From NCBI GenBank assembly GCA_945949085.1, contig CAMFDJ010000008.1:1-64000 (forward strand): a stretch of DNA of 64,000 bases, read 5' to 3'. Shown here piece by piece: positions 51,570-53,683 of this stretch (position 1 is its first letter; every line of letters starts with the position of its first letter). The notes under the pieces were generated by a model, which saw only the letters and a list, made by a program, of their open reading frames with translations, had not been told where the DNA came from and made no database searches. The position numbers were made by a program, and so were the translations under genes. The DNA comes from an uncultured Lachnospiraceae bacterium. Its GTDB lineage: Bacteria > Bacillota > Clostridia > Lachnospirales > Lachnospiraceae.

Positions 51570-51773
51570 CGATTTGTAAATTTATTTGATTATACCATAT
51601 TCAGATCTTCCCCGCCATATCGTTTATTTAGCAGACTTTCTATAATTAAACAGCTTTCCCCCATCCTTACACTCACATTGTTTCCGAAAGCAGAGCACAG
51701 AAAAGAAAAAGCCCCAAACCATTGCTATACAATGATTTGAAGCTTAATATTATCGTGCCCTAGGTCGGAATTT
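51570..51773. repeat. Left imperfect direct repeat with decayed tRNA-Leu 3' end
   Basis: Shares GATTATACCATATTCAGATCTTC, TTGTTTCCGAAAGCA and AAAAGCCCCAAACCATTGCTATACAATGATTTGAAGCT with 53417-53683. Confidence 0.85.
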
Positions 51774-51885
51774 AAGCTATCACGGAAACGTATAAACCCG
51801 CTAAGAAAGGAGCTTTCCACACACTACCTATACGGCCAACTTCAAGGTGTCTTCAAATTTCCTGCCTTAATTCATTATGATTCGG

Positions 51886-52281
51886 TCAACAATTCAGTTT
51901 AACATACGCTTTTACTGCTTCATAGAATTTCTTAGCATTTTGAATTTGCTCTTCCACGTCAGATCTTGATACTACAAAAAAATCATCGTAATCACTATCG
52001 CTCCTAATATCAAATGCTTCTTTAATGATATCTGAGTACTCAACATCAAATATGCCCGTCTTTATATATTCTTTTCTAAAGTATGCTGACACACCTGAAT
52101 GTTTTGCAAAATCCTGTCCATCCAATGCAAGAATACTTCTCATGCAATGAAAAACAGCGTAATACGAACGATTCGCAGCGCCTTTATAATCACCTGCTTC
52201 GGTTAATACCCTTGCAGAATTCATACATATCTCAGCCTGCTCAAGCCTATATTCTGCCAATGCCTTTCGTTCATTATCCAT
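51886..52281 (-). CDS. HEPN domain protein (HepT-like toxin candidate)
   Basis: HEPN-type RSYYAVFHCMRSIL; ATG overlaps MNT stop (ATGGATAA). Confidence 0.8.
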   Translation of the reverse strand: MDNERKALAEYRLEQAEICMNSARVLTEAGDYKGAANRSYYAVFHCMRSILALDGQDFAKHSGVSAYFRKEYIKTGIFDVEYSDIIKEAFDIRSDSDYDDFFVVSRSDVEEQIQNAKKFYEAVKAYVKLNC

Positions 52282-52612
52282 AGATTGTGATTCCTTCCCT
52301 GGCGACATTCTGATAAAACGGTAAGATTCTCTGACCGGATTCAAAAGATTCTTTATCTCTGAGCAGTAAAGACACCTCTATGTCATTCTCCAATCCTATT
52401 CTGCTGGCCAATCTGCTGATTTGTTTGCGATAAGTTTTTAGTTTTTCTTTATCGCATTTTAAGATAATCATAATATCAACATCTGATTCCGTTGTATAAT
52501 CCCCTCTTGCACAGGAGCCGAATAAATACATTTTATAAATATCTTCTTTTGCCAATTCAATCACTTGATCCACTACTTTGGCTGTAACCACATCTATTAA
52601 TTCTGCATTCAT
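52274..52612 (-). CDS. Minimal nucleotidyltransferase (MntA-like antitoxin candidate)
   Basis: GSCARGDYTTESDVDIMI motif. Confidence 0.85.
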   Translation of the reverse strand: MNAELIDVVTAKVVDQVIELAKEDIYKMYLFGSCARGDYTTESDVDIMIILKCDKEKLKTYRKQISRLASRIGLENDIEVSLLLRDKESFESGQRILPFYQNVAREGITIYG

Positions 52613-52960
52613 TTGCGCTCCTCCTTTCGAGAATTATCTATTAATTTTATGATTATATTATATCCATATGTAAGCGATTATGCAATGTTTCCATATGATA
52701 GTGTAGAGTTATTGTCAGTTGAAAAAGAATACTCCATTGACATATTTACACCATATTCGGAATCTAACAAGTTGACAAACCGGAAGTTGCGTGTTTCTAC
52801 GAGCGGTGCGCAGACAGGACGGAATCAGTCGTGGGAGCTTGCTCACAAACGGCTGAATTTCGGACTGGATGCATAGCGCGACAGCGCGTCATGAGCATGT
52901 AGCGCAAGCGGAATGCGAATGGCACCGCATAATTAAATTTGAAGCTGTCGCTCTCCCGTT

Positions 52961-52993
52961 CGCTGATATGTCGCTGATATGTCTCTGATATGT
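52961..52993. repeat. Three tandem 11-bp repeats
   Basis: CGCTGATATGT, CGCTGATATGT, CTCTGATATGT. Confidence 0.8.
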
Positions 52994-53003
52994 TGGCCTA
53001 TCA

Positions 53004-53264
53004 TTTTACCTATAAATAACTTCTCTATGCAAATTTTATACGTATTTTCTTACACGTTTTACTTCATTTTTTCTGGTTTTACCTATAGAAAATGCCATTT
53101 CACAAATTCTATAGGTAATTTTTTGCTTCATACTTCTTTATTCCCTTTGATTTAACCTATAAAACATATTAATCAGCATATTTTATAGGTATTTTCCTGC
53201 TTATGCGACCTTCATGTCCTCTGATTTTACCTACTATTTATAAATACAGACATTTTTTATGGGT
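53004..53264. repeat. Four ~74-bp tandem units, each with ACCTATA-N22-TATAGGT
   Basis: Forward arms 53008, 53081, 53155, 53229; reverse arms 53037, 53110, 53184, 53258; constant 29-bp offset. Confidence 0.85.
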
Positions 53265-53416
53265 AATGCTCCCTATTTCGCATTTGCCAGGACAAGAAAT
53301 AACTTCGTTTGTACTTTTTCTCTAAGTTCGGTCAATTCAAAGGTATCTGTATCTTTTACCCTTCTTCTTGCCCTTCGGACAAGAAGCATCCCTCGCTCAA
53401 AGAATTCGGTCAATTT

Positions 53417-53683
53417 CGATCTGTAAATTTTCTTGATTATACCATATTCAGATCTTCTCTGCTATACAGTTTATGGAATGGACTTTCTACATTTGAACAT
53501 CTTTCCCATCCTTCCACCCGATACCATTGTTTCCGAAAGCACCCCAAAGTAAAGGCGCAGAAAATGCCCATTTTATGCGGGGTACATACATGTACATACA
53601 TTTTCTCAAAAATGAAAAAAGCCCCAAACCATTGCTATACAATGATTTGAAGCTCATTTACATCGTGCCCGCGACCGGAATCG
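53417..53683. repeat. Right imperfect direct repeat, continuous with intact tRNA-Leu 3' end
   Basis: Homologous to 51570-51773 with a ~70-bp extra segment. Confidence 0.8.

Follow-up and report, generated by a model that had tools for sequence, protein, structure and literature searches.

The segment behind tRNA-Leu(UAA) in the 64-kb window (the whole stretch of DNA that was analyzed) is very probably the relic of a small, probably mobilizable, tyrosine-integrase element that entered the 3′ end of this tRNA gene, lost its integrase end, probably through recombination, and kept a HEPN/MNT gene pair as cargo. The window lies on contig C8 of a 2.65-Mb Lachnospiraceae genome belonging to the same genus as Kineothrix sp. 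MSJ-39, the sole same-genus genome in our comparison. An earlier note on this DNA had proposed a degraded element integrated at a tRNA 3′ end, and this proposal is supported by an intact relative at tRNA-Leu(UAA) in MSJ-39, by the homology of its outer end to the window, and by the presence of a whole integrase clade at tRNA-Leu(UAA). Tyrosine-integrase IMEs are known to target tRNA 3′ ends, with NBU1 and MTnPi4 as examples at tRNA-Leu (review PMC5704250).

The integration target is an intact tRNA-Leu(UAA) gene (53665-53749, minus strand; ARAGORN, Rfam, and a match to the att core at 53662-53686), whose upstream partner in a tRNA operon is tRNA-Tyr(GUA) (53817-53900, minus strand; ARAGORN). 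Besides these two tRNAs, Rfam returned nothing. As had been described, the right copy of a long direct repeat runs into the intact tRNA gene, and the left copy ends in a degenerate version of its 3′ end. This dead copy (51753-51775, minus strand), recognized as a decayed att site also from its alignment with one att copy of the MSJ-39 element, agrees with the 22-nt core in 16 of its 22 bases (51754-51775). It is the best core match in the window apart from the tRNA itself, it lies at the same distance from its terminator copy as the intact tRNA does from the other, and its tRNA homology ends where the att core of the MSJ-39 relative ends. The att pair of the island consists of the intact tRNA and a site carrying 6 mismatches in 22.

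The earlier note had suggested looking elsewhere for an integrase-bearing version, and one was found on MSJ-39 contig C32 (locus L027), where an element of ~7.4 kb occupies tRNA-Leu(UAA), with an exact 25-bp copy of the 3′ end of the tRNA on either side (L027:5307-5331 and 12691-12715). It encodes a tyrosine integrase (11154-12500, facing the tRNA), a MobC-like protein, an HTH regulator, and two cargo proteins, and it has its own terminator (L027 12655-12690) behind the tRNA, the native terminator and flank being present on the far side only. Its site is a paralogue of the C20 site of the window's own genome (tRNA-Val lies beside both) and not an orthologue of the Leu/Tyr locus in the window. 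The outer end of this element is 75% identical over 107 bp to the window sequence on the inner side of the dead att site (E 8e-13, att core included); without that core, L027:5331-5412 still matches 51776-51860 with 76% identity over 82 bp (E 8.5e-9). On the basis of this homology, a profile search, and an alignment with eight element ends, 51776-51860 (minus strand) is identified as the outer, non-integrase end of the relic. It includes a conserved CTCCTTTCT block near 51805-51813 as well as GTGTCTTCAAAT at 51847-51858. The latter motif has a single occurrence in the window and two in the MSJ-39 locus, close to the two ends of the element, and is positioned like a putative integrase arm site. 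Among 200 family genomes, an element end of the window type was found in MSJ-39 only. The MSJ-39 element contains two copies (L027:5925-6060 and 10316-10440) of a ~50-nt sequence, belonging to a hairpin, that also lies in the flank of each tRNA-Leu locus of the window's genome (window 53510-53557 and L006:261-319) and has no other significant match in the two genomes.

All six of the closest relatives of the MSJ-39 integrase (35-37% identity; 397 genomes searched) adjoin tRNA-Leu(UAA) and converge on the tRNA, and for one of them the tRNA pair is Leu(UAA)/Tyr(GUA), as in the window. The clade elements have a second copy of the tRNA 3′ end, 22-39 bp long, 5-14 kb away, and five of them carry near-identical integrases; the one analyzed by Pfam encodes a rolling-circle Rep-like protein and an HTH regulator. 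When nine outer ends, including that of the window, were aligned, a CYCCTTTCY block (AA-C-YCCTTTCY) was common to all at an equal distance from att, with TTGAA-type direct repeats further inward. A profile of the eight other ends had its top match at 51756-51851 (E 8.5e-7; when the att core was excluded, E 4e-5). An inside-only profile that left out MSJ-39 still ranked the window site first, at a non-significant E of 0.39, and the element-end identification leans mainly on MSJ-39. In genome G238, after a complete element comes another unit bounded by att sites, in which a short reading frame resembles an integrase but has no Pfam match; this tandem offers a parallel to the decay in the window. 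The tandem ssrA genomic islands of Dehalococcoides, in which successive elements, some decayed, are bounded by RNA 3′-end copies (PMC3146451), resemble the G238 tandem in having successive elements at one RNA gene, but they involve serine recombinases and an ssrA target. No relatives of the MSJ-39 integrase were found in viral contigs, and in the genome-contig collection this integrase matched only MSJ-39 itself and one distant MAG. One clade element at tRNA-Leu(UAA) (L126:4026-5623, genome G006) carries radical SAM mobile pair A/B as cargo.

Taken by sequence comparison, the outer att site and the outer element end are recognizable in the window, and the integrase end is absent, with nothing of it left. 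The earlier note had seen no integrase, and the window has none; in this genome, homologues of the MSJ-39 integrase are present only on contigs C4, C11, and C12, and the one on C11 (L098) adjoins a tRNA-Leu(AAG) gene. Between the repeats, only the HEPN and MNT genes were found and no mobilization genes. The relic resembles IMEs (PMC5704250) in its tRNA-Leu 3′-end target, the direct repeat of the tRNA end at its far boundary, its homologous element end (outer only), its small size, and its cargo, but it lacks the integrase and mobilization genes, whereas the intact element on C32 of MSJ-39 has a tyrosine integrase and MobC. In the part of that review that deals with CIMEs, which cites Pavlovic et al. 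2004, these are elements that have lost integration and transfer genes and kept attL and attR (PMC5704250). Because the window element has one decayed att site (16/22) and no longer has its integrase-proximal end, it lies at or beyond the edge of what is there called a CIME, as a remnant beyond one, and mobilization in cis is unlikely.

The long direct repeats themselves are real: pairwise alignment placed the left copy at 51567-51773 and the right copy at 53414-53683, in one orientation, with a similarity far exceeding chance (BLAST E 3e-25 and 1e-13). Three blocks align, namely 51567-51660 with 53414-53507 (94 nt, 81% identity), 51676-51705 with 53525-53554 (83%), and 51706-51771 with 53616-53681 (66 nt, 86%), and the left copy lacks ~60 nt of flank present in the right copy. 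The earlier note had quoted a long identical run, which does exist (39 nt, AAAAAGCCCCAAACCATTGCTATACAATGATTTGAAGCT), although the leading G that it included is unshared because the right copy holds one extra A. A terminator scan resolved this run, at both copies, into a 17-bp terminator-like stem and a T tract on the minus strand, and it is the predicted intrinsic terminator of the tRNA-Tyr/tRNA-Leu operon (right copy, 53616-53655, identical at the C20 locus; left copy, 51706-51745, with 39 nt identical to the right; both minus strand). An exact scan of the genome-contig collection gave no match to it. Beyond the terminators lie the 3′ flank of tRNA-Leu in the right copy (53412-53615, minus strand; defined by comparison with C20 and the left copy) and, from the repeat alignment, the presumed original chromosomal flank in the left copy (51567-51705, minus strand). 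An extended −10-like TGGTATAAT in the left flank, read from the letters only, faces a GNAT gene and is a putative promoter box.

Site-specific integration at a tRNA 3′ end duplicates the tRNA end only. Integration is accordingly an explanation for just the ~23-bp tRNA remnant of the long repeats and not for the further ~250 bp (terminator plus ~200 bp of flank), and an unrelated dispersed repeat makes up part of the interior. A second event is required because the tRNA and the dead att site are each followed by a terminator and flank of native type, and this event was probably recombination with an element-free copy. The alternatives between which the earlier note had hesitated, a degraded element and a non-integrative duplication, are therefore probably both true, each for a different part. 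Under this explanation, a tyrosine integrase would have inserted the element into the 3′ end of tRNA-Leu(UAA), leaving the intact tRNA on one side and, on the other, a spare 3′ end of the tRNA (today's 51753-51775) and, beyond it, the chromosome's original terminator and flank. We infer that homologous recombination later exchanged the tRNA side for an element-free form of the locus, comprising the tRNA, its terminator, the flank, and the dispersed repeat, and that the integrase end was lost in this exchange. The replacement would have put a second terminator and flank beside the tRNA, generating the long repeats, and would have been accompanied by gene conversion among tRNA-Leu loci, while the HEPN/MNT toxin-antitoxin pair was retained as cargo.

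Element-free loci are available for comparison in both genomes. The second tRNA-Leu(UAA) locus of the window's genome, on C20, and the tRNA-Leu locus on MSJ-39 contig C2 both show a single copy of the flank and lack a second tRNA end, and the first ~100 bp of flank is native at the element-free loci of both genomes. The earlier note regarded its reading as vulnerable to relatives that lack the HEPN/MNT segment and still carry both repeat copies; at the orthologous Leu/Tyr locus of MSJ-39, the one same-genus genome covered by this check, there is a single flank and no second tRNA 3′ end. An AbiE toxin-antitoxin pair lies directly behind tRNA-Leu at this orthologous locus (contig C2, L028:6063-7514). 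In the window, 53560-53749 (the tRNA and ~105 bp of flank) is 100% identical to C20. The outer flank of the right copy (53412-53507) shares 73% identity with C20 and 76% with the left copy, the left copy and C20 being 65% identical; being about equally far from both, it does not support C20 as the sole donor of the right copy.

The serious rival to the recombination reading is that tRNA-Leu, its terminator, and its flank were tandemly duplicated before integration, the element then entering the second tRNA and a deletion removing that tRNA together with the integrase end. Here, the left site would still be a real att site, and the long repeat would be older than the element. We consider this order of events possible, if the less probable course: the identity between the left and right outer flanks (76%) slightly exceeds that of each to C20 (65% for the left, 73% for the right), and AACTTCCGATTTGT, the end of a dispersed repeat that abuts the right copy, also stands at the start of the left copy. 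It needs one event more, however, with a second tRNA body that left no trace, and the complete identity of the right copy to C20 would require a separate gene conversion. Less probable again, and in our view unlikely, is that the element itself brought the terminator and flank beside attP, having captured them by imprecise excision from such a locus. Other clade elements do have their own terminator beside the tRNA-proximal att site, as on L027, and the ~50-nt flank piece at 53510-53557 that recurs inside the MSJ-39 element points the same way; against this, element-free loci natively carry the first ~100 bp of this flank, and none of the clade elements examined has that flank at its integrase end. 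That no integrative element was involved, the dead tRNA end having merely been copied along in a segmental duplication of the 3′ region of the tRNA, is very improbable and was rejected in its pure form, since, even though the repeat reaches well past the tRNA end in a manner unlike an att duplication, 51776-51860 matches, with equal spacing from att, the outer end of the integrase-bearing MSJ-39 element, and the tRNA homology stops at the same point as the relative's att core.

The preferred reading, a relic that lost its integrase end through recombination, involves a composite dispersed repeat inserted in the island (52769-53423), a 97% identical copy of which is present on contig C10 of the same genome over 570 bp. 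It comprises a GC-rich part (52776-52938), palindromic ~73-nt repeats (52997-53250), and a conserved end (53360-53423), is unrelated to the element ends, and has no Rfam match. Partial copies are found on C3, C4, C27, and C41, the one on C4 (L094:1803-3355) being split by two GNAT acetyltransferase genes, and relatives of its two ends occur in 58 of 299 family genomes, Lachnospiraceae-wide. Window 53361-53430 is almost identical to the start of C41, which may pose a risk of misassembly at the 53340-53430 junction. Conservation of the 64-nt end across genera is about 90% or higher (loci L147, L149, L151, and L152), and at L149 a 61-nt portion of the repeat is present in several tandem copies. 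Because the left copy opens with AACTTCCGATTTGT, the last ~12 nt of this end, both copies appear to have once neighbored the dispersed repeat, which would have lain beside the flank before the duplication. The dispersed repeat might be a non-coding mobile or recombination element, Lachnospiraceae-wide, that captures or trims adjacent cargo and here provided homology for loss of the integrase end, but this is doubtful. Terminal inverted repeats were also considered and were unsupported as its ends, a pattern scan giving one match per genome. A literature search returned no paper on this element family or on the dispersed repeat.

The genes between the repeats, a segment of ~1.6 kb, had been called HEPN and MNT, an identity borne out by Pfam. 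They are a HepT-like toxin gene (51886-52344, minus strand; PF05168, E 3.9e-24) with an Rx6H motif and an MntA-like nucleotidyltransferase antitoxin gene (52274-52612, minus strand; PF01909, E 2.6e-12) with a GSx10DxD motif, both motifs being read from the sequence. The HEPN frame overlaps MNT by 71 nt, and its start codon is uncertain. In type VII (HepT/MntA) modules, MNT AMPylates HEPN and neutralizes it. The adjacent genes, Pfam matches, and catalytic motifs seen by eye in the window resemble such modules, but its MNT scores below the NCBIfam MntA cut-off (34.9 versus 60 bits), and the pair is a predicted one, known from sequence. It looks intact and is a plausible reason for the persistence of the remnant. 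HEPN homologues are widespread (62 of 299 genomes), but none of the five loci checked lies near a tRNA, so the cargo could not be traced to a source element. HEPN/MNT is likewise absent from the intact relative elements examined, so that its arrival with the element is deduced from its position. The HEPN/MNT operon now has the left terminator copy downstream, on its own strand, and may for this reason have taken it over as its terminator; the present place of this copy at the end of the operon may also be why its stem was kept intact beside a decayed att site.

It is well supported that the tRNA-Leu relic is of a known kind, a common genomic fossil and ordinary biology, and it leaves general understanding unchanged. 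Set beside its intact relative, it illustrates how a tRNA-gene island loses its integrase while toxin-antitoxin cargo persists, and it marks tRNA-Leu(UAA) as a recurrent entry site of one integrase clade in Lachnospiraceae. It also illustrates that a long repeat beside a tRNA gene may conceal a short att duplication within a larger, later rearrangement. Two further sets of repeats lie near the island. An inverted repeat, ACAAACCGGAAGTTA / TAACTTCCGATTTGT, at 50545-50559 and 51563-51577 bounds the GNAT gene and an AAA/zeta-like kinase gene, and ACAAACCGGAAGTT is found again at 52775. Between tRNA-Tyr and a glycosidase gene, 54092-54160 holds three tandem 22-nt repeats (TCATTCRCATGYTTCACCTRAT).
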